This document shows positions 45,992-63,581 of a stretch of DNA of 64,000 nt, piece by piece; the first letter of the stretch is position 1, and each line of letters begins with the position of its first letter. The notes under the pieces are model-generated. The model did no database searches. It was given only the letters and a program-made list of their open reading frames with translations, and was not told where the DNA came from. The stretch is from positions 170,298 through 234,297 of the forward strand of contig NZ_QKTW01000003.1 in NCBI RefSeq assembly GCF_003236175.1, written 5' to 3'. This DNA is from Taibaiella soli. GTDB taxonomy: Bacteria; Bacteroidota; Bacteroidia; Chitinophagales; Chitinophagaceae. The translations under genes and the position numbers were made by a program.

Positions 45992-46145
45992 GATCTTGTT
46001 GCTGATGGGAAATTACTAAAGAATTGACAGTTGACAATGGGCAATTGACATTGAACGAATGAGGATTGAAAATTTATGATTTTGTATTGTTTCCGGATGG
46101 CTTTGGATTGCTCGATTAACTCACGCCAAATGTGCCATTGGAACG
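45992..46145. other. Left half of divergent gap, phrase repeats
   Basis: GACAGTTGACAATGGGCAAT words (46026-46048) and no gene; promoter elements of the leftward gene at 44711 are not clear. Confidence 0.4.
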
Positions 46146-46376
46146 CTAGAAGAGTCAATGCTGGGTCTAAAAGAGTCAACGTTGACTCTAAAAGAATGGA
46201 CGTCGGGGTTAAAAGAGTCAACGTTGATGCGAAAAGAGTGGACATCGACTCTAAAAGACTCGACGCAGACACTAAAAGAGTCAAAGTTGATGCGAAAAGA
46301 GTGGACATCGACTCTAAAAGATTCGACGCAGACACTAAAAGAGTCCATGCCGATACTATAAGCATCAACGTCGACA
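46146..46376. repeat. 21-bp tandem array, 11 units
   Basis: Eleven units of exactly 21 bp start at 46146 and every 21 bp to 46356, each beginning CTAAAAGAGTC or a variant. Units 5-6-7 and 8-9-10 repeat as a 63-bp block (CGAAAAGAGTGGACATCGAC, then CTAAAAGA, C or T, TCGACGCAG). The array lies between divergent genes. It reads through as a heptad repeat in several frames on both strands, which follows from a unit of 7 codons without stops. Confidence 0.92.
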
Positions 46377-47803: not shown

Positions 47804-49234
47804 ATGAAACTGCTATCGATCCTCCTTTGCGCGGTCAGCGCATCAGCTTTTGCACAGCAAAAGACCAATGATTTTTATTCCAGAGTGACCAGCCAGCTGT
47901 CGCCGCAGCTAAAAGAGATTTTAGTAAAACAAATGGCTACACATGGTCTGAACAAAACAACCCTTGACAAGCAAAGATTGGTCGCCTACAGCCTTCGGGA
48001 TTTTCAGAATAACGTCGCCAACGACAGTATGTATTTCGGTTATTCGGGTAATCGTGGTTCTTCCTTTGCTAACTGTATGGAAAATATGGAGGGACGTAAC
48101 GGCAGGTATTCGAAGCCGGACACATTATGGTCTTTTTTCGGTGGTGGGTTGTCATTTGACGCACGCTATACTTATGACAGCCATGATAGTCTGCTGAGTG
48201 TCTATTATGTTGGGATACATAGCCGAGTGGTGTATACGAGAGATAACGCTGGTAATGCCATTATTACAGAGGCTTTTGATTCCACGGGCAATCAAATAAC
48301 CCACACGGCGACATACAGTGCTTACGATAACCAGAACCGTAAAATTCTCGATAGCACGGATCAGTCTAACAAAACAAACTACGCTTACGGTCAGGGCGTT
48401 GACTCGTCCATCCACTACACCTGGGCTACTGCTACAGCCGCCTGGGAGCAGGCTTACATGGCTCTGGATATTTATAATAACGCAGGAACACCTACCGTTC
48501 ATTATCAATTTAGTCCGGCCGGGTCCAATGCCTGGGATTCCGCTTTCCGCGTCAGCTATACCTATAATGCCAACGGCTTTCTTACCTTGGCACTTACCAG
48601 CATCTATGATGACTTAAACAATAGCTGGAGAGATGTCAATAAAGAGATTTTTGATTATACCGGTAACCATCCTTTTTATAGTTATTACGAAACGCTCGAG
48701 AATACACCGTCTGGCTGGGTAGGGGATAATAAATTTGCCTGTCAGACAAACAATGCCGGGAATTGGGATGTTTTTTATGGCTTTGCCTGGAATAATACTA
48801 CCAACGTATGGGACACTTCACGCCGGATAAATTTTACTTACAACAATCTTGATTTGATTTCCACTTTGGAGACCTATCGTTACGATAATACAATCGGTTC
48901 GTTTGAAGCAAATCCGTTTCAGTTGGAAACCTACTATTATAAAACGTATATCGTTCCTAACGCTGTAGACGTTATTCATGCAGTAGCTGCGGAAATCTCG
49001 GCCTATCCGAATCCTGTTTCGGGTAATTTGCACATCGGTGGGAATATCGGGAATCAGGATGTTTCAATGCAAATTATAAGTATCACCGGTGTCCGTTTAT
49101 TCAATGCTAGTGGAAATTGGCAGTCGATGAATAAAGACATAGACATGAGTGGATTTGCGAACGGTGTGTATTATTTGCTCATCAAGGATGGTAACGGAAA
49201 TAAAATAGCTGCGAAGCAGATTATTAAAGCATAA
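47804..49234 (+). CDS. T9SS-exported YD-like repeat protein, copy 1 (subfamily A)
   Basis: First of seven paralogs. The 476-residue precursor has a signal peptide (MKLLSILLCAVSASAFAQQ), a short variable segment with LNKTTLDKQRLVAYS (about 48-62), and the subfamily A block YSGNRGSSFANCMEN. Tyr/Asn-rich beta repeats follow (YTYDSHDSLLS, YTRDNAGNAI, YSAYDNQNRKI, YTYNANGFL), similar to YD/RHS repeats, then the conserved NNAGNWDVF...W block. The sorting domain (YPNPVSGNLH to the end) is the most diverged of the seven and ends IIKA. It is separated from the other six by the metalloprotease gene. Function unknown; surface display is inferred. Confidence 0.85.
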   Translation: MKLLSILLCAVSASAFAQQKTNDFYSRVTSQLSPQLKEILVKQMATHGLNKTTLDKQRLVAYSLRDFQNNVANDSMYFGYSGNRGSSFANCMENMEGRNGRYSKPDTLWSFFGGGLSFDARYTYDSHDSLLSVYYVGIHSRVVYTRDNAGNAIITEAFDSTGNQITHTATYSAYDNQNRKILDSTDQSNKTNYAYGQGVDSSIHYTWATATAAWEQAYMALDIYNNAGTPTVHYQFSPAGSNAWDSAFRVSYTYNANGFLTLALTSIYDDLNNSWRDVNKEIFDYTGNHPFYSYYETLENTPSGWVGDNKFACQTNNAGNWDVFYGFAWNNTTNVWDTSRRINFTYNNLDLISTLETYRYDNTIGSFEANPFQLETYYYKTYIVPNAVDVIHAVAAEISAYPNPVSGNLHIGGNIGNQDVSMQIISITGVRLFNASGNWQSMNKDIDMSGFANGVYYLLIKDGNGNKIAAKQIIKA

Positions 49235-49289
49235 AACCCAGGCTTAAAGCCGAACGCCTAAAGCTCGAAGCTTCTCCTGATATCAAATT

Positions 49290-49320
49290 AAAGGTCGTGC
49301 AGCAATGTGCGGCCTTTTTT
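49290..49320 (+). terminator. Terminator of paralog copy 1
   Basis: Stem AAAGGTCGTGC / GTGCGGCCTTT-like with a T run. Confidence 0.75.
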
Positions 49321-49764
49321 GTGGATTAGATATTTTGTTTAATGGCCGCTCTATTCAGTTTTCGGCGTTAGGTTTTCAGCTTTGAGCCTTTCAATTTAAA
49401 TATCGGTAAAAGCCGATCGGGCAGCGGGTTCTACATTTTTTGCAATCCTTCGTTGGCGGGTAGCATATCTGGGGAAAAATGTCTACGGCCAAAATTCGCC
49501 ACAGCAAAGGTTTTGAGCGGGCCGATAATTTTTTTATATATGAATGCTTGTTCCATATTTTAAAATTTTTTAAAGTTGGATGTTGCAGCTGACAGGAATA
49601 CCCATATTTTAGAATTTTTATATTTAGTCTGAAATCCGTTAATGATGCGGATTTGGGCAATACTTTCTCCTGCGTGAAAAAAATAGTACAGAATTTGTAG
49701 TACAAACCCTGGGAGTTAAAACCTGCTATTTAACCATCTTATTCATTTTTCAAATTTTTCGTTG
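49321..49764. other. Long gap before metalloprotease gene
   Basis: No confident gene. GGTTTTCAGCTTTGAGCCTTT words occur near 49370-49392. An open frame of 41 codons (49431-49556, leftward, starting MEQAFIYKKIIGPLKTFAVA) is the only small candidate; I cannot support it by family or promoter. A short hairpin ATCGG-TAAAA-GCCGAT lies at about 49401-49417. Confidence 0.35.
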
Positions 49765-52443
49765 ATGCGCATAAAATGCTATCTAATTGCATTGCTGGGC
49801 GCCGTGTGTTCATTGGGACTGACGCGCGCTAAAGCCGGAGACAATGTGAATGTACTTTCTGCAAAAGTTCATTACGCTGAAGCTCACGATACTTATTTCC
49901 AAAACATTTCTTTATTCAAGGCGGACAATAGTTCCATTCCGTCTATTACAAAAGAGGCGACGATGTTGCGGCCAGATCAGGCAGCCATCAGTCAATTGTA
50001 CGCTACTAAGCCGCAGGCAGTAAAGCTGAGTCTGACCGATAGTGCAGGAAAGACTTATGTGCTTTCATTACTGCGTTCCAATCCGTTTGCCGAAGATGTA
50101 AACGCAGGATTTATTGATAAAAACGGCCGGCACGCAATTGGCAGTTTCGACCAGGGATTACATTACCAGGGCGCTATAGAGGGCGTTGAAAAATCACTGG
50201 CTACTTTAAGCGTTGGTGGTAATGGTGAGGTGATGATTCTTTTTGCGAATGATGAAGGAAACTTTATCGTAGGTAAAATGGAAGACAGCAGCGGCCGTTA
50301 TATTTTCTACAATGATCGGAAGATGACGATGCAGCATCCGGGTACCCCTTGTGCTACGCGTGATGATGTGACCACACCCGGCGGCGATACAAAAGGATTG
50401 GAGCGCACCACTGCCATTACAATCTGTAAAAAAGTGCAGCTGTACTGGGAAGTGGCCAACAATCTCTGCACGTACAAAGGTGGATTGGCTAATACGCAAA
50501 CTTATATAGCCGGCCTTTTTAATCAGGTGCAGGCTTTGTATGCGAATGAAAATATTGCGGTAGAACTTAAGTCATTTTATGTCTGGACAACGGCAGACGA
50601 TTATCCAACGACTACAGGTTCCTCTGCGGCACTGTATATGTTTCAGGCATACTGGAACAGCCAGAACAATGGTTTCGATGGTAACCTGGCCCATTTGATT
50701 GAGCGCGATAATCAGGGTAATGGCGGTGTGGCTTATGTAAATGTTTTGTGTAATCGGAACAATGCCTATGGCTATTCGGACGTGCATGGCAGCTATTCCG
50801 CGGTACCTACTTTTTCCTGGGATGTAGAATGTATCACGCATGAAACCGGGCATAATTTTGGCTCTCATCATACACACTGGTGCGGCTGGAATACAGGACC
50901 AAACAATACCTGCGGTGCCATTGATGATTGCTGGACGCCTGAATCTACTAATACTTGTTCTACTTGTCCGACGACATATACAACAGTGAATTCAAACTGG
51001 GCCGGAACAATTATGAGCTATTGTCACCTGGCCAATAATGGCATTGATCTGGCGAACGGCTTTGGTCCGCTGCCGGGTGCGGTTATTCGTAATAGTGCCA
51101 CTAACGGCAGTTGCCTTTCATCGATCATCAGTGGTACACTTACTGCCACACCGATCTGTAACAATAATGGCGGCGTAACGCTGGCATTGGCCGCAAATAA
51201 TTTTGCGGTAGCACCGTATACTTATACCTGGTCGAATGGTGCGACAACACAGAATCTCACTAATATTTCCACGCCGGGTACATTTTCTGTTTCGGTAAAA
51301 GATGCCAACAACTGTACCAGCACCATCAGCGGCGCAACCGTTGCACAAGGCGTAACGCCGGGTAATGGCATCACGCCGGTTGAAAACATGCCGATCTGTT
51401 GTATGAATCCGTCTTATACATTGACGATTGCTGCGAATGCGCCGCAAAATATTTCTTCTTGTCAAACGGTATCATGGTTGCGCACAGCTGCACCTATTAC
51501 CAGTATCAGCGCGGCACAGGCAGCCTTTAACAGTGCTGCGGCAACCGATATTTTCACCGCCACTAATGCAAGTAGCATCAATGCAACAACAGGTGCCACA
51601 CTGACTGTTATGGCTCCTGCAAACTGTACAGGAACTACTACCGATTATTATACACCATTTGTAAGCAGAAATACAAAGCCAGTCAATAACATTACGCAGA
51701 CTGCCGGTACAGCAGGTGCTTTTTCTATCGGCAGTACACAGTTAGGCAGCTATGCATCATTAACCGATCAAAGTTCCAGTGCTACTTCTTGTGATCTGCT
51801 TGATACACCATCGGTGCGAACATTGAGCGTAACCGTAACTGGCTATACAGGTCGTGCTAATCATATGTACTTAACAGTGCTGAGCAGTACCAACACTATA
51901 TTGTACGAAGTAACAGGTCTCGCTGGTAATGGTACTTACACCGTACCGTTATCAAACATCAAAGGTTCACCGTTGCAGGCAATGACCGTACGCGTGTTTG
52001 ATTACAATTGTGTTTATTCAACCGGCTGCACTGCATCTACCGCTTCATTGAGCGCTACGCGTACCGTAACATATGCTGCAGTGACTGCACCGAAGTTTGA
52101 AAATGTATGTTCTGCGGGTAGCTCTATTATGGTGAGTTTCTCACCGAATGGTTGCACTTCTACTGGTATAAATGGTGCCAATGCAGCTGTGACGGGTACT
52201 ATGAGTTTATTTCCGAATCCCGGACATACAACAATGACATTTAAATTTCAGGCAGCAAAAGCGGGCAACGGTTCTGTGAAGATTGTGGATATGGTAGGTA
52301 AAACTGTGTATAAAGACAATGTTGTTTTCTCCGCCGGCACCAACGAAAAACAATTGGATGTGAGCAGTTGGGCGAAAGGAATTTACTTCCTCAGCTTCGA
52401 TGCTGAAAACACCGTAGGTACTTTGAAGATGGTTGTTGAATAG
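49765..52443 (+). CDS. Reprolysin-like (M12) metalloprotease with T9SS sorting domain
   Basis: The 892-residue precursor has a signal peptide (1-24) and a propeptide-like region. A metzincin catalytic domain (about 215-460) carries the zinc site HETGHNFGSHH (359-369) and a downstream Met in TIMSYCH. PKD-like and proprotein-convertase-like beta domains follow (about 470-800), then a type A sorting domain (LFPNPGHTTM; ends GTLKMVVE). I start at the ATG 49765; a TTG one codon upstream is less likely. It lies inside a run of YD-like paralogs, all in the same direction, and may process them or be carried with them. Confidence 0.92.
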   Translation: MRIKCYLIALLGAVCSLGLTRAKAGDNVNVLSAKVHYAEAHDTYFQNISLFKADNSSIPSITKEATMLRPDQAAISQLYATKPQAVKLSLTDSAGKTYVLSLLRSNPFAEDVNAGFIDKNGRHAIGSFDQGLHYQGAIEGVEKSLATLSVGGNGEVMILFANDEGNFIVGKMEDSSGRYIFYNDRKMTMQHPGTPCATRDDVTTPGGDTKGLERTTAITICKKVQLYWEVANNLCTYKGGLANTQTYIAGLFNQVQALYANENIAVELKSFYVWTTADDYPTTTGSSAALYMFQAYWNSQNNGFDGNLAHLIERDNQGNGGVAYVNVLCNRNNAYGYSDVHGSYSAVPTFSWDVECITHETGHNFGSHHTHWCGWNTGPNNTCGAIDDCWTPESTNTCSTCPTTYTTVNSNWAGTIMSYCHLANNGIDLANGFGPLPGAVIRNSATNGSCLSSIISGTLTATPICNNNGGVTLALAANNFAVAPYTYTWSNGATTQNLTNISTPGTFSVSVKDANNCTSTISGATVAQGVTPGNGITPVENMPICCMNPSYTLTIAANAPQNISSCQTVSWLRTAAPITSISAAQAAFNSAAATDIFTATNASSINATTGATLTVMAPANCTGTTTDYYTPFVSRNTKPVNNITQTAGTAGAFSIGSTQLGSYASLTDQSSSATSCDLLDTPSVRTLSVTVTGYTGRANHMYLTVLSSTNTILYEVTGLAGNGTYTVPLSNIKGSPLQAMTVRVFDYNCVYSTGCTASTASLSATRTVTYAAVTAPKFENVCSAGSSIMVSFSPNGCTSTGINGANAAVTGTMSLFPNPGHTTMTFKFQAAKAGNGSVKIVDMVGKTVYKDNVVFSAGTNEKQLDVSSWAKGIYFLSFDAENTVGTLKMVVE

Positions 52444-52494
52444 TGTTTGTAGAAGCGGGACAATACCGCTCCGAAGTAATCAGAATGATAAATT

Positions 52495-52529
52495 AAAAGC
52501 CGCGCAGCATCAGCTGTGCGGCTTTTTGT
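52495..52529 (+). terminator. Metalloprotease terminator
   Basis: Stem AAAAGCCGC / GCGGCTTTT with inner pairs, then T. Confidence 0.75.
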
Positions 52530-52593
52530 TTTGGACAATTGTCATTTGTTTACAGGTAATTGTCATTTGGCTTTGAGCGTTCCGCTTTTTATA

Positions 52594-52601
52594 TATCTTC
52601 G
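52594..52601 (+). promoter_or_regulatory. -7 box of paralog copy 2
   Basis: TATCTTCG, a TAnnTTcG variant also seen before copy 4; leader about 38 nt. Confidence 0.45.
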
Positions 52602-52644
52602 TTTTGAACCTTATAGCATTTCCAATACCTAAAAAATAAACTCA

Positions 52645-54060
52645 ATGAAGTTTCTATCAATCCTCCTTTGCGCAATGAGCGCAACAGCTTTTGCGCAACA
52701 GCAAAACAACAGCTCTCCCTATTCTAAAATGGTCAGCCATCTGAGCCCACAGCTTCAGCAGATTCTGGCGAAACAAATGGAGGCTCCACATGGACTAAAC
52801 AAGACAACAACAGACAAGCAACGCCTCGTAGGGTATAGCATTAATGATTTTCGGAATGGTTATAAAGACAGCACTTATTTAGCGTATTCAGGTTATCGTG
52901 GTTCTTCGTTTGCTAACTGTCAGGAAAACTGGCGTGGCTGGGATGGAACGTATTCCAAACCTGACCAGGTATTGGAAATCAGAAACGGCATATTGATTTC
53001 TGATACGCGAAACACATATGACAACAACGATAGTCTGGCGGGTTTTTCATTGAGCGGTTACCTTCATAACCATTGGGATTATACGAGAGATAATGCAGGT
53101 AATATTATTGTTACGGATTTCTACGACACTGTGGGCACTCAAGTAAACCATTCATCGGAATACTTCACCTACGACAACCAGAACCGTATCACTTTAGATA
53201 GTTCATTTCAGGGAAGTAAAACCAATTACGGTTACGGTCAGAATGTTGATTCCTTGATTGGGTACACATGGAATAATGGATCATCATCCTGGATAGCTCA
53301 AACTAAAAAGATAAATATTTACAGTGGTGCTGGTTTGCTGACGCTGCATTATCAGTTTTCGACAGCGCCCGGATCTAATGTGTTGGATTCATATTCCAGA
53401 ACCAACTACACCTACAATAGCAATGGGTTTGTGATATTGGAAAATACTCAGCTCTACGACGCAACGAGTGGTACGTGGGGAAACGACCAAAATGAGGCGC
53501 TTGGCTACAATGGTAACAACCCATTATTAACTTATGTTGAATTAGATCACAGCTACAAATTTATTGGCACATTGAATAGCGCCGGCAACTATGATACTAT
53601 CTACAACTTTCAATGGAATAACTCTTCTGGTGGTTGGGATCAAAACAACAAGGTGAGGTTTATTTACAATAGTTTTGATTATATCACAGCGGCGGACCTA
53701 TATGAAATCGATACCGCTACTGGTGCCATAAGCACAACTGTCACCGGGCGCCAGAATTATTATTACCAAACCTACAATGTTCCCGATGCTGTAACAACTG
53801 TCAATGCTGTATTTACTGAGATTACAACTTATCCGAATCCCGTTTCCGGTAAATTGCACGTTGATGGAAACATCGGTAGCAAAAATGTTTCAATGCAAAT
53901 CATCAGCATTACCGGTGCACGATTATTCAATACTTCCGGCAACTGGCAGTCGATGAATAAAGACATTGACATGAGTTCATTTGCGAATGGTGTTTATTAT
54001 TTGCTGATCACAGATAACAACGGTAACAAAATTGCTGCGAAGCAGATTGTGAAAAACTAG
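52645..54060 (+). CDS. T9SS-exported YD-like repeat protein, copy 2 (subfamily A)
   Basis: A 471-residue paralog: signal FLSILLCAMSATAFAQQ, LNKTTTDKQRLVGYS, YSGYRGSSFANCQENWRGWDG, then repeats (NTYDNNDSLAG, YTRDNAGNII, FTYDNQNRIT, YTYNSNGFVI) and NSAGNYDTIYNFQWN. From base 53836 onward, through the sorting domain and past the stop codon, its DNA is 230/231 identical to the end of copy 3, although the two proteins belong to different subfamilies. That marks a recent conversion or duplication of the 3' end alone. Confidence 0.87.
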   Translation: MKFLSILLCAMSATAFAQQQNNSSPYSKMVSHLSPQLQQILAKQMEAPHGLNKTTTDKQRLVGYSINDFRNGYKDSTYLAYSGYRGSSFANCQENWRGWDGTYSKPDQVLEIRNGILISDTRNTYDNNDSLAGFSLSGYLHNHWDYTRDNAGNIIVTDFYDTVGTQVNHSSEYFTYDNQNRITLDSSFQGSKTNYGYGQNVDSLIGYTWNNGSSSWIAQTKKINIYSGAGLLTLHYQFSTAPGSNVLDSYSRTNYTYNSNGFVILENTQLYDATSGTWGNDQNEALGYNGNNPLLTYVELDHSYKFIGTLNSAGNYDTIYNFQWNNSSGGWDQNNKVRFIYNSFDYITAADLYEIDTATGAISTTVTGRQNYYYQTYNVPDAVTTVNAVFTEITTYPNPVSGKLHVDGNIGSKNVSMQIISITGARLFNTSGNWQSMNKDIDMSSFANGVYYLLITDNNGNKIAAKQIVKN

Positions 54061-54066
54061 GTGGCT
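53836..54066 (+). repeat. 3'-end identity block, copy in paralog 2
   Basis: This 231-bp stretch, from inside the sorting domain to six bases past the stop codon, matches 55402-55632 with a single mismatch (AGATTGTG against AGATCGTG). Identity stops abruptly at both ends. Confidence 0.95.
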
Positions 54067-54097
54067 AAAGGAGAAGCCAGTTCGTAAAAAATAAACA

Positions 54098-54133
54098 AAG
54101 GCTGTGCAGTATTACACGGCCTTGTTCTTTTAA
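54098..54133 (+). terminator. Terminator of paralog copy 2
   Basis: Stem AAAGGCTGTG / CACGGCCTT-type with a T-rich tail. Confidence 0.6.
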
Positions 54134-54170
54134 CTCACGCTGGGAAGCTTTAGGCTCTCTGATTTTATTA

Positions 54171-54178
54171 TACTTTTG
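54171..54178 (+). promoter_or_regulatory. -7 box of paralog copy 3
   Basis: TACTTTTG fits TAnnTTTG; leader about 15 nt before the ATG at 54199. Confidence 0.6.
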
Positions 54179-54198
54179 TCCTACATAAAAAATAATTA

Positions 54199-55626
54199 AT
54201 GAAACCTATTTTATCGATTTTGCTAAGTGCGCTTAGTTTGTCGGCATTTGCACAGCATGTAGATTTAATCCAGGCAACGCCGCAACGTGTAAAAGCTATT
54301 ATCGAAAAACAAATGTCAACCCATGCTGTAAATAAAACCACGGGGACGGCAGAACGATTGATTGGCTATAGTAGTCGTTCGTTTCCGGGAAATACATTAA
54401 TTGACACGATGCATGCAGCTTATTCAAACGGGCGCGGTGTATCTTATCCGAGTTGTCGGGAAAATATGTATGGATATAGATTTTTTGGACAACCGGATAC
54501 AATATGGGAAAACTATGTTGCTGCTAATAGCTATGTCAATGATCTGATATATTTATATGACAGTCATGATTACGTATTGAGTAAGATTGATAAAATTAAG
54601 GGTAGAAAGGATGAATACATTTTGGATGCAGCTGGCAATGCTGTGCAGACCAAATCTTATAAATTGGATACAATAAATGGAACTTTAACCTATGATTATA
54701 CGAATTACTCTTCCTATGACAATCAGAATAGAGATGTCTATGATAGTTCATGGCATGGCTCAAAACTTGTGTCTGTTTATGGTTCAAATGGGATAGACTC
54801 TACGACCTCTTACTCGTGGGATACAACCGGAGGAGTCTGGAAGCCTTTAATGAAAGTTGTGTATGGCTATAATGCCTTAGGACGAGTAACGTTGACACGA
54901 GGGTTTTCCTGGAACGTTGGTGACAGTGCATGGTTTTACTTTTTAAAAGACACGGGTATCTACAATAACAACGGATGGTTAATTTCTTATGTTGGCATGA
55001 CTAATTCAGGAAGCACTGTTTGGGATAGTAGTTATAAGTTCATCTATAATTATGCGGGTAATGGCCCGTTGTATAATTACGTGGAATCCTATACAAAGTT
55101 CCTTAATCATTGGGCAGGTGTGCAAAAGGATTCATTTTCTCTAAATAGCGCAGGAAATTGGGATTATTTCATCGATTGGCAGTGGGATTACAATGCATTG
55201 ACGTGGGGTAGTGCATCAAAGCATCAATTGGTCTATAACTCTTTTGATCTTGTTGACAAGCTGGATATTTATAACTTCAATTCAACTACTAATCAGTTTG
55301 AAATAAGTCCTTCCAATACGGCACATTACTACTACGAAGAATACAATCCAACCGCTGTAACCACCATCTACACGGCATCTCCCGAAATAACTGCATCTCC
55401 AAATCCCGTTTCCGGTAAATTGCACGTTGATGGAAACATCGGTAGCAAAAATGTTTCAATGCAAATCATCAGCATTACCGGTGCACGATTATTCAATACT
55501 TCCGGCAACTGGCAGTCGATGAATAAAGACATTGACATGAGTTCATTTGCGAATGGTGTTTATTATTTGCTGATCACAGATAACAACGGTAACAAAATTG
55601 CTGCGAAGCAGATCGTGAAAAACTAG
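54199..55626 (+). CDS. T9SS-exported YD-like repeat protein, copy 3 (subfamily B)
   Basis: A 475-residue paralog with the subfamily B signal (MKPILSILLSALSLSAFAQ) and the B-type block NKTTGTAERLIGYSSRSFPG, then TLIDTMHAAYSNGRG in place of the GSSFANC block of subfamily A. Repeats include YLYDSHDYVLS, YSSYDNQNRDV and YNNNGWLIS, then NSAGNWDYFIDWQWD. The sorting domain ends KQIVKN and is a near-exact DNA copy of that in copy 2. Codon use in the centre looks more A/T-rich than in copy 2, in contrast to the shared 3' end. Confidence 0.86.
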   Translation: MKPILSILLSALSLSAFAQHVDLIQATPQRVKAIIEKQMSTHAVNKTTGTAERLIGYSSRSFPGNTLIDTMHAAYSNGRGVSYPSCRENMYGYRFFGQPDTIWENYVAANSYVNDLIYLYDSHDYVLSKIDKIKGRKDEYILDAAGNAVQTKSYKLDTINGTLTYDYTNYSSYDNQNRDVYDSSWHGSKLVSVYGSNGIDSTTSYSWDTTGGVWKPLMKVVYGYNALGRVTLTRGFSWNVGDSAWFYFLKDTGIYNNNGWLISYVGMTNSGSTVWDSSYKFIYNYAGNGPLYNYVESYTKFLNHWAGVQKDSFSLNSAGNWDYFIDWQWDYNALTWGSASKHQLVYNSFDLVDKLDIYNFNSTTNQFEISPSNTAHYYYEEYNPTAVTTIYTASPEITASPNPVSGKLHVDGNIGSKNVSMQIISITGARLFNTSGNWQSMNKDIDMSSFANGVYYLLITDNNGNKIAAKQIVKN

Positions 55627-55632
55627 GTGGCT
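55402..55632 (+). repeat. 3'-end identity block, copy in paralog 3
   Basis: Partner of 53836-54066 (230/231 identical). It also crosses the stop codon. Confidence 0.95.
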
Positions 55633-55660
55633 GTAGAGAGGTAGTATGCTACGTCTCTAC
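55633..55660. repeat. 28-bp palindrome, degraded copy
   Basis: GTAGAGAGGTAGTA followed by TGCTACGTCTCTAC: two mismatches from the perfect palindrome found after copies 4 and 5. Confidence 0.75.
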
Positions 55661-55717
55661 GAATTGCAATAATGATCAGACAGTTTTAAGTCGTCTGATG
55701 TTTCCGAATGCATATTT

Positions 55718-55747
55718 AAAGGTCGTACAGTTGCTGTGCGGCCTTTT
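55718..55747 (+). terminator. Terminator of paralog copy 3
   Basis: Stem AAAGGTCGTACAG / CTGTGCGGCCTTT with G-T pairs, then TTC. Confidence 0.65.
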
Positions 55748-55854
55748 CATTTATAATAAAACGAATGATTTTACGTTTTTAGGTTTCAGCTTTAGACGTT
55801 ATGCTTTTAGCTTAATCTTAAGTTTTACATTTTCAGCTTTGTAATGAATTTGAA

Positions 55855-55862
55855 TACCTTCG
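55855..55862 (+). promoter_or_regulatory. -7 box of paralog copy 4
   Basis: TACCTTCG, like copy 2. It lies downstream of the in-frame ATG at 55844, so that ATG cannot be the start. Confidence 0.45.
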
Positions 55863-55909
55863 CCCGACCTTATAGCAGCGTTTTCTTTTTTTACCTAAAT
55901 AAAAACTCA

Positions 55910-57337
55910 ATGAAGTTTCTATCGATCCTCCTTTGCGCAACGAGCGCAACCGCTTTTGCACAGCAGCAAAACAACAATCCCCTTTACACGAAAATGACCG
56001 GCCACATGAAGCCGCAGGTCAAAGAGATTCTGGCAAAACAACTGGCAGCACAACATGGCCTGAACAAAACAACTGTCAATAAACAGCGGCTTGTTGGTTT
56101 TAGTGCACAGAATCTAATGACTGGCGATGTGGACAGTACTTATCTGGGCTACTCCGGTCTTCGTGGTTCATCGTTTGCCAATTGTCTGGACAATATGAAC
56201 GGATACGACGGCAGCTATTCGAAAGCGGATACTGTTTGGCGGTTTACATCGGGCGCATTGCATTCAGACATGAGATACACTTATGACAGCCACGATAGCG
56301 TGTTGACTATCTATGATGCGATGGCCCCATTTAGCATGGTCTATACGTTGGACAACGCCGATAATGCTATTGTTACTGACATCTATGATACATCGGGAGG
56401 ACAGCCGACACACATGGTGACCTATAGTCAATACGACAATCAAAAGCGCAAGACTTACGACAGCACGGACGGGCTTACTAAAACAATGTACGGTTACGCC
56501 CCAGGTGTTGATTCCGCCCTCTCCTATTATTGGGATGGCACGCAGTCAGTCTGGATTCCTACCAGTAAAATCGTTCATACTTATAATAGCGCCAATCTGA
56601 TGACCGGCGAGTATTCATATCAAGCTGGTGCCAACAGCTGGGACCCTGCTTACAGAACTACTTATACGTATAACAACAGCGGTTTTTTAGCAACAACACT
56701 TTCGGAGACTTTTGATGCAAACATTGGCTGGGCTAATGATTATAAAGAAGCTTTTGGTTATACTGGCAGCAATGCGTTGTACAATACTTACGAAGCTTAT
56801 TATACGGATCAGAATGGTAGCTGGATAGGCGACACAAAATTTGACTGTACGATCAACAGTGCGGGTAATTGGGGTGCCTTTCATTCATTCGAGTGGGGTA
56901 ATGCTAATAGTTTTGATTCATCTGCAAGAATCGACTTTACCTACAATAACTTCAATTATATAACCGAAATGGATTTTTACTATTACGATTATACTACCGG
57001 TGCTTACGATCCGACTGTATTGGAGCGCGATAATTATTATTACCAGACCTACAACGTGCCCGATGCTGTAACGACTGTTCACACTGCGGTTGCCGACATT
57101 ACAACTTATCCAAATCCAGTTTCCGGCAAGCTTCATATTGGTGGAAATATCGGTAGCAAAAATGTTTCAATGCAAATCATCAGTATAACTGGTGCACGAT
57201 TATTCAATACATCCGGCAACTGGCAATCGATGAATAAAGACATTGACATGAGTTCATTTGCGAATGGTGTTTATTATTTAGTGATCGCAGACGAAAACGG
57301 CAATAAGATTGCTGCGAAGCAGATTGTGAAAAACTGA
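55910..57337 (+). CDS. T9SS-exported YD-like repeat protein, copy 4 (subfamily A)
   Basis: A 475-residue paralog with signal FLSILLCATSATAFAQQQ, LNKTTVNKQRLVGFS, and YSGLRGSSFANCLDNMNGYDG. Repeats include YTYDSHDSVLTIYD, YSQYDNQKRKTYD and YTYNNSGFLA, then NSAGNWGAFHSFEWG. I use the ATG at 55910, where the signal peptide begins; an earlier in-frame ATG at 55844 precedes the promoter. Its sorting domain shares most of its DNA with copies 2 and 3 but has its own 3' end (DENGNK). A perfect 28-bp palindrome follows 6 bp after the stop. Confidence 0.87.
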   Translation: MKFLSILLCATSATAFAQQQNNNPLYTKMTGHMKPQVKEILAKQLAAQHGLNKTTVNKQRLVGFSAQNLMTGDVDSTYLGYSGLRGSSFANCLDNMNGYDGSYSKADTVWRFTSGALHSDMRYTYDSHDSVLTIYDAMAPFSMVYTLDNADNAIVTDIYDTSGGQPTHMVTYSQYDNQKRKTYDSTDGLTKTMYGYAPGVDSALSYYWDGTQSVWIPTSKIVHTYNSANLMTGEYSYQAGANSWDPAYRTTYTYNNSGFLATTLSETFDANIGWANDYKEAFGYTGSNALYNTYEAYYTDQNGSWIGDTKFDCTINSAGNWGAFHSFEWGNANSFDSSARIDFTYNNFNYITEMDFYYYDYTTGAYDPTVLERDNYYYQTYNVPDAVTTVHTAVADITTYPNPVSGKLHIGGNIGSKNVSMQIISITGARLFNTSGNWQSMNKDIDMSSFANGVYYLVIADENGNKIAAKQIVKN

Positions 57338-57343
57338 TGGAGC

Positions 57344-57371
57344 GTAGAGACGTAGCATGCTACGTCTCTAC
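57344..57371. repeat. 28-bp perfect palindrome after copy 4
   Basis: GTAGAGACGTAGCA and its exact complement, no loop. It is followed by a second imperfect hairpin (GGTCGTACGG...GTCGTCTGACC, about 57385-57411) and a terminator. Confidence 0.95.
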
Positions 57372-57428
57372 AAAATACAATAACGGTCGTACGGCTTAGC
57401 GTCGTCTGACCATTTTGCAAATAATATG

Positions 57429-57461
57429 GAAAGGTTGTGCAAAATGCGCAACCTTTTTTTG
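57429..57461 (+). terminator. Terminator of paralog copy 4
   Basis: Stem AAAGGTTGTGC / GCGCAACCTTT with an AAAAT loop and seven T. Confidence 0.85.
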
Positions 57462-57474
57462 TTTGGTAACTCGT

Positions 57475-57540
57475 AGCAGCTTTAAGCTTTAGGCTTTGAG
57501 CTTTAAGCTTTCGGTGTTGAGCGTTAAGCTTTCAGCTAAT
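57475..57540. repeat. AAGCTTTAGGCTTT phrase repeat
   Basis: Words GCTTTAAGCTTTAGGCTTTG, GAGCTTTAAGCTTTCGG and GTTAAGCTTTCAGC fill this stretch. Related words are at about 2697-2768, 47629-47650, 49240-49272, 55775-55840, 59150-59198, 60650-60682, 60748-60780 and 62379-62402. Confidence 0.7.
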
Positions 57541-57545
57541 AATTA

Positions 57546-57553
57546 TATTTTTG
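57546..57553 (+). promoter_or_regulatory. -7 box of paralog copy 5
   Basis: TATTTTTG fits TAnnTTTG and lies downstream of the in-frame ATG at 57496, which is therefore rejected as start. Confidence 0.6.
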
Positions 57554-57576
57554 CCTTACCTAATAAAATAGAAATG

Positions 57577-59013
57577 ATGAAACCTATACTATCAATTTTG
57601 CTCACTACTTTGAGCATATCCGCATTTGCGCAGCGCTTTGATCCTTCAGAAACAATGTCGCCACTGGTAAGGGCAATTATTCAGAAGCAGATTTCGACCC
57701 ACAGCAACGGCCTGACTGGTGGCCTGAACAAAACAACCACCGATAAACAACGTCTTATCGGTTACAGCAGCCGTAACATGCAAAATGGAGTGATTGACGA
57801 TACTTCATCGTTAACTTATTCCGGATTCCGCGGTTCTTCTTTTGCCAATTGTAATGAAAATGCGAGTGGAGATCGTGGCGCCTATTCGAAACCCGATATC
57901 GTCAACACGGTTGCTACTTTTGGTACAAATCTGATGTTGTGCACGTATGACGGGAAAGACAGCTTGTCGACTGAATATGACAGCCTGGGGCACCGTCTGA
58001 ATGTTTATACGCGAAATAATGTCGGTGATCCCATCGTACTGGATTATTATGATACACTCAATAATAACCCGCCGAGACACCTTACCACCTACAGCAATTT
58101 TGACAACCAGCACCGGAGGCTCTACGATAGTAGCTGGCAGTATATGAAAACGGTGTCTGTCTACGGTCAGGGCGTAGATTCTTTCATGTATTATGTCTGG
58201 GATAATACATCGGGACAATGGAAGACTGCTTACAAAACGGTTGCGGTATATAATAATGCGGGACTCCCAACCAATTATTATAGTTATAACGGAAATGCTT
58301 CGAATGGCTGGAATCAGAGTGGCAGAGTCACCTGTACGTATAACAGTAATGGCTTTCTGACATCTGCCATTAGCGAATCGCTGAACAACAGCACTCAGGT
58401 TTGGCAATATACTATTAAGCAAGTTTATGATTATACTGGTAATCATCCGCTTTACAGCAAATACGAATTCTATAACAGCTACAGTCAAGCCGGAGGATGG
58501 CAAGGATACACTAAAAATGATTGCGTAGGCAATAGTGTTGGTAACTGGGATACTGTCTATACATCTAGCTGGGATACCGTCTCCCATAATTTCGGCCAAC
58601 CTAATAAAAGAGTCGACTATACCTACAATAGTTTCAATCTGGTTACTCAAATGGATACTCGCTCTTACAATCAGGCTTCCGGTCAGTTTAGTCCCACTAA
58701 AACCGAGCGGTTTTATTATGAAGCTTATACCGTTCCCGATGCTGTAACCACTATCCACACTATATCTCCAGAAATTACCGCTTACCCGAATCCTGTTTCC
58801 GGTAAACTGCATGTTGATGGAAACATCGGTAGCAAAAATGTTTCGGTTCAAATGATCAGCATCACTGGTGCGCGTCTATTCAACGCAACGGGCAACTGGC
58901 AGTCGATGAATAAAGACATTGACATGAGTTCATTTGCTAGTGGTGTTTACTATTTAGTGATCGCAAACGAAAATGGAGATAAGATTGCTGCAAAGCAGAT
59001 TGTGAAAAACTGA
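57577..59013 (+). CDS. T9SS-exported YD-like repeat protein, copy 5 (chimeric B/A)
   Basis: A 478-residue paralog whose promoter, leader and signal peptide are of type B (MKPILSILLTTLSISAFAQR), while the body is type A (GLNKTTTDKQRLIGYSSRN, YSGFRGSSFANCNEN). This points to a recombination just after the signal peptide. Repeats include YTRNNVGDPIV, YSNFDNQHRRLYD and CTYNSNGFLT, then NSVGNWDTVYTSSW. The sorting domain has the QMISITGARLFNATG variant. The ATG at 57577 aligns with the start of the other B-type copies; 57574 is an adjacent alternative. Confidence 0.87.
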   Translation: MKPILSILLTTLSISAFAQRFDPSETMSPLVRAIIQKQISTHSNGLTGGLNKTTTDKQRLIGYSSRNMQNGVIDDTSSLTYSGFRGSSFANCNENASGDRGAYSKPDIVNTVATFGTNLMLCTYDGKDSLSTEYDSLGHRLNVYTRNNVGDPIVLDYYDTLNNNPPRHLTTYSNFDNQHRRLYDSSWQYMKTVSVYGQGVDSFMYYVWDNTSGQWKTAYKTVAVYNNAGLPTNYYSYNGNASNGWNQSGRVTCTYNSNGFLTSAISESLNNSTQVWQYTIKQVYDYTGNHPLYSKYEFYNSYSQAGGWQGYTKNDCVGNSVGNWDTVYTSSWDTVSHNFGQPNKRVDYTYNSFNLVTQMDTRSYNQASGQFSPTKTERFYYEAYTVPDAVTTIHTISPEITAYPNPVSGKLHVDGNIGSKNVSVQMISITGARLFNATGNWQSMNKDIDMSSFASGVYYLVIANENGDKIAAKQIVKN

Positions 59014-59020
59014 TTGAGCG

Positions 59021-59048
59021 TAGAGACGTAGCATGCTACGTCTCTACA
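59021..59048. repeat. 28-bp perfect palindrome after copy 5
   Basis: Same perfect sequence as 57344-57371, 7 bp after the stop codon, again followed by the second hairpin (about 59060-59087). Confidence 0.95.
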
Positions 59049-59103
59049 AAATACAATAATGGTCGGACGGCTTAGCATCGTCTGACCATGTTACAAATAA
59101 ACT

Positions 59104-59146
59104 GAAAGGTCGTGTAACTATTTGTTGCACGGCCTTTGTTCTTTTA
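59104..59146 (+). terminator. Terminator of paralog copy 5
   Basis: Stem AAAGGTCGTG / TGCACGGCCTTT-type with a T-rich tail. Confidence 0.65.
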
Positions 59147-59207
59147 ACGCGTGCTGGGAAAGCTTTAAGCCTATAGCTTCTGCTTTTGGGCTTTCAGTCA
59201 ATAATTA

Positions 59208-59215
59208 TATTTTTG
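59208..59215 (+). promoter_or_regulatory. -7 box of paralog copy 6
   Basis: TATTTTTG fits TAnnTTTG; the ATG follows at 59236. Confidence 0.6.
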
Positions 59216-59235
59216 TTCTACCTAAAAAATAATTA

Positions 59236-60645
59236 ATGAGACCTATTCTATCGATATTGCTAAGTGCGCTTAGTCTGTCAGTATTTGCACAACGCGCAGA
59301 TCTTCTCCAGGCGATGCCTCCACGTTTAAAAACGGCTTTCGCAAAACAAATGGCACCTCGCGACGTGTACAAAACAACCGGCGCGACTCAGAGATTAATT
59401 GGATATAGTTATTACACTGGAAACACGCAGACCGATACGATGCATGCGAAATTTTCAGGTGGGAGAGGAGATGCGTTCAGTAATTGCAGCGATAATCTAA
59501 TGGCCTCCTGGGGCGGATTTGCTCAGCCAGATTCAATTTGGGTAGATGATTTGAATTTAAGGATAGTAGATCAAGTGTATCTTTACGATGCGCAAAACCA
59601 TGCAACGGTATATACAGACTACAGGTCTCAATCTCGCCAAGAGATGACATATGACAATTCGGGGAATAATACGATTACGAAGTTTTATGATACAGTCGGC
59701 AGTGGCAACGGAACGCTGATCTATAAACACTCACAGTATTGCTTTTATGATAATCAAAATCGGAAGACATATGACAGCATTCCCAATCAGCAAAAATCGA
59801 TCTATATTTATGGATCAAACGGCTACGACTCCATAATATATTATAATTGGCATGTTGCAGCGGCTATTTGGTCAAAGATTGAAATGGAAGCTTCGGTTTA
59901 TAATAGTCTGGGGCAAAAGATTTTCTATTCTCTAGGAAATTATGACACAGCCGCCCACGCATGGCGCTTGTATATTCGAGACTCTTTTATATACAATAGC
60001 AATGGTTTTGTTGCAGAGGAGATAGATCAGACTAATTACACTGGTACCTGGACTACAAGAAAATTTGTTACCGGTTATTCTGGAAATAATCCTTTACCCA
60101 TTTTAGAAACAGAATATGTTGGTGATAGTCTTGTACCAGACATCCAGGATTTTTATAGCTTAAATAGTGCTGGAAATTGGCAGTCAAGAGTTTCTCAACA
60201 CTGGAATCCGACGACGAGCAGCTGGAGTAATGATGATAGTCTGGATATCGTGTATAATACTTCTGAATTTATTTCAATGACAAACGATTTTTATTACGAC
60301 TCAACCGGCAATCGGTTTAACACAAGTCCCTCCGTTACGCAACATTACTACTACGAAGATTACACCCCAACCGCTGTAACCACCATCCACACTACATCTT
60401 CCGAAATCATCGCATATCCGAATCCTGTTTCCGGTAAACTGCATGTTGATGGAAACATCGGTAGCAAAAATGTTTCGGTTCAAATGATCAGCATCACCGG
60501 TGCGCGTCTATTCAACGCATCGGGCAACTGGCAGTCGATGAATAAAGACATTGACATGAGTTCATTTGCTAATGGCGTTTACTATTTGTTGATCACAGAT
60601 AACAACGGTAACAAAATTGCTGCGAAGCAGATTGTGAAAAACTGA
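59236..60645 (+). CDS. T9SS-exported YD-like repeat protein, copy 6 (subfamily B)
   Basis: A 469-residue paralog: signal RPILSILLSALSLSVFAQR, KTTGATQRLIGYSYYTG, DTMHAKFSGGRGDAFSNC, then repeats (YLYDAQNHATV, YCFYDNQNRKTYD, FIYNSNGFVA) and NSAGNWQSRVSQHWN. Its sorting domain is a mosaic: the first half matches copy 5 (QMISITGARLFNA), while the second half (from GCATCGGGCAACTGGCA to the stop) matches copy 7 almost exactly. No 28-bp palindrome follows this copy. Confidence 0.86.
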   Translation: MRPILSILLSALSLSVFAQRADLLQAMPPRLKTAFAKQMAPRDVYKTTGATQRLIGYSYYTGNTQTDTMHAKFSGGRGDAFSNCSDNLMASWGGFAQPDSIWVDDLNLRIVDQVYLYDAQNHATVYTDYRSQSRQEMTYDNSGNNTITKFYDTVGSGNGTLIYKHSQYCFYDNQNRKTYDSIPNQQKSIYIYGSNGYDSIIYYNWHVAAAIWSKIEMEASVYNSLGQKIFYSLGNYDTAAHAWRLYIRDSFIYNSNGFVAEEIDQTNYTGTWTTRKFVTGYSGNNPLPILETEYVGDSLVPDIQDFYSLNSAGNWQSRVSQHWNPTTSSWSNDDSLDIVYNTSEFISMTNDFYYDSTGNRFNTSPSVTQHYYYEDYTPTAVTTIHTTSSEIIAYPNPVSGKLHVDGNIGSKNVSVQMISITGARLFNASGNWQSMNKDIDMSSFANGVYYLLITDNNGNKIAAKQIVKN

Positions 60646-60698
60646 TTTGCGCCGAACGTTTAAAGCATAACGCTTAAAGCTTGCCGGTAATTAAGTAG

Positions 60699-60729
60699 AA
60701 AGGTTGTGCAAAATGCACAACCTTTTTTT
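60699..60729 (+). terminator. Terminator of paralog copy 6
   Basis: Stem AAAGGTTGTGC / GCACAACCTTT with an AAAAT loop and seven T. Confidence 0.85.
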
Positions 60730-60786
60730 GTTTGGTAACTCATAGCAGCCTTAAGCTTTAGGCTTTGAGCGTTGAGCTAATAATTA

Positions 60787-60794
60787 TACTTTTG
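60787..60794 (+). promoter_or_regulatory. -7 box of paralog copy 7
   Basis: TACTTTTG fits TAnnTTTG; the ATG follows at 60814. Confidence 0.6.
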
Positions 60795-60813
60795 CCCCAC
60801 CTAAAAAATAATA

Positions 60814-62238
60814 ATGAAAACAATTCTATCAATCCTGCTCGGAGTAACGAGCCTATCTGCGTTAGCACAACATAATAATCCTTTCGACGCAATGCCGGCA
60901 CACCTAAAGGCGATTTTTGAAAAGCAAATGTCTAAACAGGTGGTTTACAAAACAACAGGATCTGCACAGCGACTCGTCGGTTACAGCAAATACTCTTTTC
61001 CGGGAAATACGATGACTGATACAATGCATGCATCTTTTTCTGGTGGAAGAGGGGATGCCTTCAGAGATTTTATTGATAATCTTTATGCAAGTGGTGGTAG
61101 CAACAACAGCCAGCCAGATGCTGTATGGGAAACTATTTTGCCTTCTAACTTTAAGACTATTGATCGCGAATACCTTTACGATAACCAAAATCACGCGGTC
61201 AAAACGATTGATCATAAAAATCAGTACAACCTTGTTCAGACCTATGATAATGCAGGCGACGCCATTCTTACGAAGTGGTATGATACGGCAATGACTTATC
61301 GATTTTCGGAGTACACTACTTATGATAATCAACACCGGAAAGTATATGATAGTGTTTGGCATAGCGGTATACAACGGTATGTCTACGGTGCAAACGGTGC
61401 TGATTCTGGCATTATTCTTACCTGGAACAATACTGCTGGTGCCTTCCGGCCGTTTCTTATGGATGTAGAGCTCACTAATACCTCCGGGCAGCTTGCATTT
61501 CACTATCAGTATTTAGGAGATACAATTACAAACTCATGGCAGGTGCCAACGTCGCGTGATTCTCTTGTCTGCAACAGTTACGGGTTTATTACGAAATCGT
61601 TTAGTCAAAACTATTACAACGGTCAATGGAATAACACAGGTGTCAACGTTTCTGATTATTCTGGAAGCAGTTCCATACCGAACTATCTCGGGTATTTTTC
61701 AATTCAGAATAACGTGCTTGTAGGGCAATATCAGACTTTCTTCACTTTAAACGGTGTTGGCAACTGGACCGGTGAAGTTCGTCAGAATTGGAACACAGCC
61801 ACGAATAGTTGGTGGACTTCTGATAGTATCAATATTAATTACAACACAAACGATCTGGTTGCTCTCGTTAATACTTTTAGATACGACACATCAACCCATC
61901 AATACCAGGCAGCGCCGTCCGCTGTTGAAACTTACTACTATGAAGAGTACGATCCGCAGGAAACCGCTGTAACCACTATTCAAACTACATCTCCAGGAAT
62001 CACTGCTTACCCGAATCCTGTTTCAGGTAAACTGCATGTTGATGGAAACATCGGTAGCAAAAATGTGTCAATGCAAATCATCGGTATCACCGGTGTTCGT
62101 CTATTCAATGCATCGGGCAACTGGCAATCGATGAATAAAGACATTGACATGAGTTCATTTGCTAATGGCGTTTACTATTTGTTGATCACAGATAACAACG
62201 GTAACAAAATTGCTGCGAAGCAGATTGTGAAAAACTGA
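60814..62238 (+). CDS. T9SS-exported YD-like repeat protein, copy 7 (subfamily B)
   Basis: A 474-residue paralog: signal MKTILSILLGVTSLSALAQ, KTTGSAQRLVGYSKYSFPG, DTMHASFSGGRGDAFRDF, then repeats (YLYDNQNHAVK, YTTYDNQHRKVYD, CNSYGFITK) and NGVGNWTGEVRQNWN. The Cys in the GGRGDAF block of copy 6 is absent here. The sorting domain has its own start (QIIGITGVRLFNASG) and shares its second half with copy 6. It is the last copy, followed by the palindrome, second hairpin and terminator cassette. Confidence 0.86.
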   Translation: MKTILSILLGVTSLSALAQHNNPFDAMPAHLKAIFEKQMSKQVVYKTTGSAQRLVGYSKYSFPGNTMTDTMHASFSGGRGDAFRDFIDNLYASGGSNNSQPDAVWETILPSNFKTIDREYLYDNQNHAVKTIDHKNQYNLVQTYDNAGDAILTKWYDTAMTYRFSEYTTYDNQHRKVYDSVWHSGIQRYVYGANGADSGIILTWNNTAGAFRPFLMDVELTNTSGQLAFHYQYLGDTITNSWQVPTSRDSLVCNSYGFITKSFSQNYYNGQWNNTGVNVSDYSGSSSIPNYLGYFSIQNNVLVGQYQTFFTLNGVGNWTGEVRQNWNTATNSWWTSDSININYNTNDLVALVNTFRYDTSTHQYQAAPSAVETYYYEEYDPQETAVTTIQTTSPGITAYPNPVSGKLHVDGNIGSKNVSMQIIGITGVRLFNASGNWQSMNKDIDMSSFANGVYYLLITDNNGNKIAAKQIVKN

Positions 62239-62244
62239 TGGAGC

Positions 62245-62272
62245 ATAGAGACGTAGCATGCTACGTCTCTAC
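62245..62272. repeat. 28-bp palindrome after copy 7 (one change)
   Basis: Same as 57344-57371 except the first base (ATAGAGACGTAGCA); 6 bp after the stop, followed by the second hairpin (about 62286-62313). Confidence 0.9.
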
Positions 62273-62329
62273 AAAATACAATAACGGTCGGACGACTTAG
62301 CGTCGTCTGACCATTTTGCAAATAATATG

Positions 62330-62362
62330 GAAAGGTTGTGCATTTTGCACAACCTTTTTTTG
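62330..62362 (+). terminator. Terminator of paralog copy 7
   Basis: Stem AAAGGTTGTGCA / TGCACAACCTTT with a TTT-type loop and T run. Confidence 0.85.
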
Positions 62363-62405
62363 TTTGGTAACTCATAGCAGCCTTAAGCTTTAGGCTTTGA
62401 GCCTG

Positions 62406-63266: not shown

Positions 63267-63581
63267 ACTATTTGCATAAGGCCGTGTACTACTTATGTAG
63301 TGGATTGTACTACTAGCATAATGGATTGCACTACTTGCGTAAGGAAGTGCACTACTTGCATAATGGATTGTACTACTTGCGTAATGGAGTGCACTACTTG
63401 CGTATGTGAGTGCACTACTAGCATAATGGATTGTACTACTTGCGTAATGGAGTGCACTACTCGCGTATGTGAGTGTACTACTTGCATAAGTGATTGTACT
63501 ACTTGCGTAAGGAAGTGCACTACTTGCATAAAGCAGTGCACTATTTGCGTAAACGAATGCACTACTTGCGTACGTGCATGT
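63267..63581. repeat. 21-bp tandem array, 15 units
   Basis: Fifteen units of exactly 21 bp (315 bp, no slippage) start at 63267 and every 21 bp to 63561. Most begin ACTACTTGC, then G or A, TAA, and vary in the last 8 bases (TGGATTGT, GGAAGTGC, TGGAGTGC). Variants occur in mixed order, so the array has been reshuffled. Three or more frames stay open across it on both strands, as expected for a stop-free 7-codon unit. Confidence 0.95.

Follow-up and report, generated by a model that had tools for sequence, protein, structure and literature searches.

Sorting-domain tails homogenised over old, diverged bodies in an array of type IX secretion cargo genes of Taibaiella soli, probably by gene conversion

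We analysed a 64,000-nucleotide stretch of the Taibaiella soli genome (contig NZ_QKTW01000003.1, positions 170,298 to 234,297 of the forward strand; hereafter the window), in which seven genes at 47804-62238, here named g1 to g7, encode predicted cargo of the type IX secretion system (T9SS). The segment that encodes the C-terminal sorting domain, or tail, is homogenised within the genome, silent sites included, in g2 to g7 but not in g1. The bodies in front of these tails are old, the tails are young and mosaic, the trees of the two parts conflict, the effect is local, and it recurs in other T9SS arrays. We consider it probable, at roughly 0.8, that gene conversion between neighbours homogenises the tails of g2 to g7 over old diverged bodies, and the pattern is best described as a domain-biased form of concerted evolution in arrays of T9SS cargo genes. 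The genome is a 32-contig draft, 98.7% complete, and one genome per species was compared.

The seven genes form one family, all lie on the forward strand and all are intact open reading frames (ORFs) for proteins of 469-478 aa. Starts of g4 and g5 were assigned by the conserved signal-peptide-like start.

47804-49234, forward strand: g1, 476 aa, GSSFANC-type body; T9SS tail at about 49004-49225, silent sites not homogenised
49762-52443, forward strand: M12B/reprolysin metalloprotease gene with its own T9SS tail, 893 codons, listed from a TTG start
52645-54060, forward strand: g2, 471 aa, GSSFANC-type body; T9SS tail at about 53830-54051
54199-55626, forward strand: g3, 475 aa, DTMHA-type body; T9SS tail at about 55399-55617, nearly identical to that of g2
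55910-57337, forward strand: g4, 475 aa, GSSFANC-type body; T9SS tail at about 57107-57328; a longer ORF begins at 55844
57577-59013, forward strand: g5, 478 aa, GSSFANC motif with a g3/g6-like signal peptide; tail at about 58783-59004
59236-60645, forward strand: g6, 469 aa, DTMHA-GGRGDAF body; T9SS tail at about 60415-60636
60814-62238, forward strand: g7, 474 aa, DTMHA-GGRGDAF body; T9SS tail at about 62008-62229

A first-pass annotation of this DNA had described one tandem run of seven same-direction genes; their number, direction and size hold, but the M12B protease gene sits between g1 and g2-g7 and breaks the array. The two body subfamilies that it distinguished are recovered in the body tree, with g5 intermediate between them: the g5 body joins g3, g6 and g7 in the tree (support 96 for protein, 92 for DNA) and is nearer g1 and g4 by motif and pairwise identity, and its signal peptide is nearer those of g3 and g6.

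Protein identity among g1 to g7 is 30-48% in the bodies and 75-97% in the tails. At the DNA level, blocks of 20 codons are mostly 30-70% identical within the body, compared with 67-100% within the tail; divergence is not uniform along the genes, in agreement with the earlier description. Synonymous divergence (dS) was computed by the NG86 method. Body dS was 2.05-3.66 in 9 of 21 pairs and not computable in the other 12, and tail dS was 0.11-0.99 in all 15 pairs among g2 to g7. Because NG86 dS is unreliable at saturation, we used codon identity beside it: residues shared between two copies are encoded by identical codons at 28-56% of body sites, compared with 62-95% of tail sites in g2 to g7. 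The g1 tail gave dS values of 1.25-3.06 against five of the other six tails and none that could be computed against the sixth, and the near-identity in DNA that the first-pass annotation gave to all the sorting domains is to be limited, as regards homogenised silent sites, to g2 to g7. The three lowest-dS tail pairs are all adjacent (3 of 5 adjacent pairs against 0 of 10 non-adjacent pairs among g2 to g7, a probability of about 0.02 by count), and the DNA of the g2 tail matches just the seven cluster copies in the genome. If the genes had duplicated recently and only their bodies had then changed fast under adaptive selection, very divergent bodies would likewise sit on similar tails; adaptive change of the proteins would, however, have kept dS as low in the body as in the tail, and the silent sites of the bodies are saturated, which makes this history barely credible.

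The tails also carry marks of exchange between copies, among them a run shared by g2 and g3.

53841-54039, forward strand: 199-nt run in the g2 tail identical to g3 55407-55605 (alignment columns 1292-1490)

This is the longest shared run; the two genes have bodies of different subfamilies, and a run of this length was reached in 0 of 2000 column shuffles. In 9 of the 21 pairs, none of them involving g1, at most 8 of 2000 shuffles reached the observed run. Tail sites form a patchwork: over its first two thirds the g5 tail follows that of g6, in the last third it comes closer to g4, and this last third is nearly the same in g2, g3, g6 and g7. In approximately unbiased (AU) tests the body topology was rejected on the tails (p 0.0002) and the tail topology on the bodies (p 4e-39). 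Low tail dS beside saturated bodies, trees that reject each other and the 199-nt run together argue that the tails are kept alike by recombination, as the first-pass annotation had proposed, and not by protein constraint alone.

We then compared the rate of identical codons at same-residue sites between the last 70 aligned codons and the rest of the gene in adjacent homologous T9SS pairs, calling a tail enriched at Fisher p < 0.001. Arrays in this and other genomes were chosen by eye among the tail matches listed, not exhaustively. They held 60 adjacent T9SS pairs, 46 of them within the homology limits (the 14 dropped were 10 of 31 in this genome, 1 of 8 in genome G264, 2 of 20 in G093 and the sole pair of G140); the six window pairs brought the set to 52, and 19 of the 22 pairs of genome G399 were added beside these to give 71. 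G264 and G093 share a genus, and G399 represents another family of the phylum. All tested pairs are T9SS cargo; the tail bias may not be peculiar to such cargo. Enrichment was found in 4 of 6 window pairs, 7 of 21 in other arrays of the genome, 3 of 7 in G264, 2 of 18 in G093 and 4 of 19 in G399 (20 of 71 in total), and in none of 19 pairs of dispersed paralogs lying on different contigs of the same genome, nor in three further pairs with similar tails.

When the genes were divided into non-overlapping 70-codon blocks (G399 left aside), the tail block was enriched in 16 of 52 cases and the penultimate block in 5 of 52, compared with 7 of 306 for middle blocks and 0 of 51 for first blocks, so that conversion also occurs elsewhere in the genes but the tail is preferred. 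In the 16 enriched pairs DNA identity was 91-96% over the last 70 codons and 82, 76, 76 and 65% over the next four ten-codon blocks. Selection of pairs on their last 70 codons might itself have produced this step at codon 70-80; when 30 or 40 codons were used for the selection instead, the mean step persisted and single breakpoints varied. Clear similarity extended into the 3' flank in 6 of the 16 enriched pairs and in 4 of the 36 without enrichment, which implies that many tracts stop close to the stop codon.

The arrays L125, L126, L132 and L143 of this genome, L145 and L148 of G264, and L162 and L165 of G399 also combine nearly identical tails with bodies that have diverged more, and in L125 and L148 the best pairs roughly equal the strongest of the window. 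L123-L124, on contig C8 of this genome, comprises about five T9SS proteins of 1350-1410 aa with mostly saturated tails and serves as a natural negative case. In several neighbouring pairs of L158-L160 of G399 the tails are conserved in protein and little at silent sites, as constraint would leave them, rather than conversion of recent date. In L157 of G093 very large T9SS proteins adjoin one another, with tails at dS 0.10-0.14 and one pair similar over about 706 codons. A few tail matches join genes that are not neighbours: L114, L121 and L122 lie on three contigs, with 84-86% identical tail DNA and no silent-site excess (p 0.14-0.94), L037 and L039 lie about 7.5 kb apart on the same contig (p 0.014), and further matches, among the dispersed pairs tested, connect the C8 array with copies that lie on other contigs. 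We also considered the tail as a freely moving module and rejected this, as tail matches of at least 100 nt among 98 T9SS ORFs examined in the genome occur only between homologous bodies.

Purifying selection alone, acting to preserve a sorting domain that the T9SS machinery must recognise, is the obvious alternative to recombination. The tail is the predicted export signal, the g1 tail is still 75-84% identical to the others in protein without having been homogenised, and several G399 tails are conserved in protein without a silent-site excess, so that constraint contributes in some tails. As the sole cause it is ruled out by the tail dS and the AU test, since selection on protein does not account for identical silent sites, for low tail dS beside saturated body dS or for conflicting trees. 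The 36 unenriched pairs add to this: their profile is flat, with tails averaging 62% amino acid identity against 58% for bodies and exceeding them in 22 of 36 pairs, which indicates that the sorting domain is not generally forced to be identical. The T. soli genome has at least 150 matches to it. We regard purifying selection alone as very unlikely.

Several observations weigh against conversion of the tail by neighbours. The reading as conversion draws on a single genome for each species. In the cluster, 12 of 21 pairs miss the mark of 8 in 2000 shuffles (the six g1 pairs, g2/g4, g2/g5, g3/g5, g4/g5, g4/g6 and g4/g7), and the column shuffle is also sensitive to rate differences along the gene. 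The protein identity of the unhomogenised g1 tail, given above, indicates that protein constraint also acts on some tails. Among adjacent pairs, 51 of 71 lack enrichment, rates vary within one genus (the G264 and G093 counts), and in several G399 pairs protein identity is 83-94% in the tail and 51-62% in the body although silent sites show little excess or none. The dispersed control was drawn from few families and partly from truncated loci. The fit to the domain edge is partial: when 12 pairs were selected on their last 40 codons, the breakpoint of five, three of them window pairs, lay no more than 16 codons from the PxP motif, that of one lay at 69 codons (no motif found) and those of six lay 22 to 706 codons from the stop; outside the window the breakpoints vary widely.

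The events behind the cluster probably ran as follows. An old expansion would have produced several genes for T9SS-exported, Rhs/YD-like beta proteins, a family with relatives in other genera of the bacterial family. Each precursor would be exported by Sec and then moved over the outer membrane by the T9SS through its C-terminal sorting domain, as the domain content predicts. The bodies diverged, presumably for binding different partners, while non-reciprocal homologous recombination between neighbours, probably by the RecA pathway, would repeatedly have overwritten the sorting-domain DNA and left g2 to g7 with young tails on old bodies. Conversion of the tail would be tolerated if the sorting domain is an interchangeable export signal; conversion of the body would be rare if the bodies are too dissimilar to recombine or if their function would be erased. 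The g1 gene, beyond the protease gene, would have dropped out of the homogenisation.

The same young tails on old bodies are predicted if it is the bodies that are replaced, that is, if incoming or neighbouring DNA recombines at the common tail and flanks and bodies are swapped over resident tails. The tail would then be a recombination handle by which the array turns over displayed modules, and this is the useful core of the idea put forward in the first-pass annotation. Such swapping fits g5, which combines a g3/g6-like signal peptide with a GSSFANC-type body, and the intergenic blocks, which are common to the copies in mosaic fashion. No recent exchange is seen, however: among the six adjacent window pairs, 0 of 30 non-tail 70-codon blocks had an excess of identical codons. 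Neither was a second copy of any g1-g7 body found elsewhere in the genome, where the remaining matches span the tail region only. We consider body replacement unlikely, though better placed than purifying selection alone. With 0 of 30 non-tail blocks enriched, the process visible here is the homogenisation of the export signal.

The flanks of the copies have the following features.

54171-54178, forward strand: TAnnTTTG box of g3 (TACTTTTG), upstream of g3
57338-57500, forward strand: g4 3' flank with palindrome and terminator, 94% identical over 163 nt to the g7 flank at 62239-62401
55632-55661, 57343-57372, 59019-59048 and 62246-62273: near-perfect 28-nt palindrome, REP-like, 3' of g3, g4, g5 and g7

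The annotation had given every copy its own TAnnTTTG-type promoter and terminator, where one could be seen. TAnnTTTG boxes stand upstream of four of the seven genes, at -27 to -31 (that of g3, listed above, and similar ones at -31 for g5, -28 for g6 and -27 for g7), and none was found upstream of g1, g2 or g4; a terminator-like hairpin follows six of the seven (g2 to g7). The statement that parts of the 3' flanks are alike was borne out by g4 and g7, listed above, and by g4 and g5 (90% identity over about 100 nt). Part of this similarity is not specific to the cluster, because the 28-nt palindrome is repeated on many contigs of the genome. As a recombination hot spot the palindrome was rejected, being a genome-wide repeat that is absent from the g2 flank although g2 and g3 are the most converted pair. 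The inverted-repeat arms found between copies are this palindrome, the terminators and one 20-nt pair, no wider search for invertible promoters having been made.

The proposal of the first-pass annotation that the cluster is a diversity-generating surface system was not upheld. Neighbouring paralogs of predicted exported proteins that recombine are what a dedicated antigenic variation system driven by the locus (silent cassettes, an invertible switch or a diversity-generating retroelement) would offer. A silent-cassette system would have donor copies that are partial or lack a promoter, a single expression site, and conversion in the variable region; here all seven ORFs are intact, four genes have a box and six a terminator-like hairpin, and none of the 30 non-tail blocks in adjacent window pairs is enriched. 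A search of the draft genome for reverse transcriptase (PF00078, RVT_1) gave no match at E 0.001, which makes a retroelement unlikely, and the presence of tail bias in other T9SS arrays means that no cluster-specific system is needed. A dedicated system of any of these kinds thus appears extremely improbable, and tail conversion accounts for a pattern that resembles special antigenic variation without requiring it.

Export by the T9SS is predicted for all seven proteins, as the annotation had proposed. Each begins with a signal-peptide-like segment, continues with the body and ends in a T9SS sorting domain of type A, about 75 residues long, with Por_Secre_tail/TIGR04183 matches above the curated cut-offs in 7 of 7 (Pfam and NCBIfam), and the genome has a SprA_N match in a 2498-codon frame (E 1.2e-166). 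The N-terminal consensus MKxILSILLxAxSxSAFAQ, whose helix was modelled at low confidence, may be a Sec signal peptide. Export, surface location and a binding function of g1 to g7 are inferred. The label "constant anchor" that the tail had received is doubtful: in Porphyromonas gingivalis PorU removes the C-terminal domain after export (PMC4804311). If such cleavage holds here, the homogenised part would be absent from the mature protein and "anchor" would be the wrong word.

The bodies had been called YD-like; on the models, the term would be a description of the predicted fold and not of family membership. No RHS/YD sequence model matched the seven proteins at E 0.1 in Pfam or NCBIfam, and the Pfam search of the seven found no toxin domain. 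An AlphaFold2 model of g1, built on the seven-row alignment, had a mean predicted local distance difference test score (pLDDT) of 66 and a predicted template modelling score (pTM) of 0.55; pLDDT by ten-residue blocks was 71-91 at residues 101-380 and 53-75 at 51-100, and the sorting tail and signal peptide were of low confidence. The model of the g7 body had a mean pLDDT of 71 and a pTM of 0.60. Both predict a long series of beta hairpins with about 330 structured residues, a predicted beta-meander body with Foldseek matches to Rhs cores and DUF3836 structures. Foldseek ranked Rhs cores first for g1 and g7 (E 5.8e-11 and 9.4e-10), at low TM-scores (below 0.3 by query length) and with a sheet far shorter than the Rhs core. 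By VIA the g1 model aligned with 3msw (DUF3836, BF3112) at Z 13.0 and a root-mean-square deviation (rmsd) of 3.4 over 125 residues, with 4r8o, a DUF3836 protein, at Z 9.5 and rmsd about 3, and with Rhs cores at Z of about 9-11 and rmsd mostly 7-9, a range that, as the tool warns, may reflect a common repeat arrangement. The body profile matched the 3msw sequence weakly (E 0.0081).

A search for the body in 394 genomes of the bacterial family, this one included, found matches in 64, mostly weak; at most four candidates per genome were scored, so that per-genome counts are low. The relatives are scattered in other genera, and most have tail-like ends. Five clusters of the same gene family in other genomes (12 genes) have divergent bodies and more similar tails, with tail dS below 1 in 2 of 9 gene pairs.

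Concerted evolution of gene ends has precedents. In Helicobacter pylori the 3' segments of babA/babB and homA/homB evolve in concert while other segments diverge, which, for babA/babB, is attributed to intragenomic recombination (PMC3960876). These outer-membrane protein genes resemble the cluster in being paralogs with concerted 3' segments; babA and babB occupy separate loci and were studied by strain comparison, whereas the cluster is an array of neighbours in one genome of the Bacteroidota, what is homogenised in it is the T9SS sorting domain, and other T9SS arrays show the pattern too. In P. gingivalis, rgpA, kgp and hagA share modules and a conserved C-terminal domain and undergo rearrangement and allelic exchange by recombination (PMC5266723). 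These gingipain and haemagglutinin genes are likewise T9SS cargo that recombine shared modules; as described there, internal adhesin domains are rearranged and alleles exchanged between strains, whereas in the cluster homogenisation affects the sorting tail and runs between paralogs that are whole genes. We found no description of conversion of T9SS sorting domains in the open-licence literature, most subscription papers lying outside this scope.

In bacteria rich in T9SS cargo the tail matches can number well above one hundred, and many of these lie in arrays. Should the tail indeed evolve apart from the body by local conversion, trees and family assignments based on tails would mislead, the growth of arrays would gain a mechanism, and the balance of body divergence and tail exchange could be measured from genomes alone. 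A much wider and speculative extension, which we think improbable, is that across the Bacteroidota the sorting domain is the preferred conversion target and recombination handle of tandem cargo arrays, with one interchangeable tail per array and bodies gained, lost or swapped, and that repertoires have grown in this way throughout the phylum.

Three more T9SS cargo genes lie in the window, at 5849-8209 (M43-like peptidase), 16076-17494 (472 aa) and 25725-28064 (PKD protein). Two 21/63-bp minisatellite arrays flank the cluster at 46143-46375 and 63267-63572, and DNA like the latter occurs at three other sites in the genome. Simple 7/21-bp repeats of the AAGCTTTAGGCTTTGAGC type are present in several intergenic gaps of the cluster, for example at 57478-57537.

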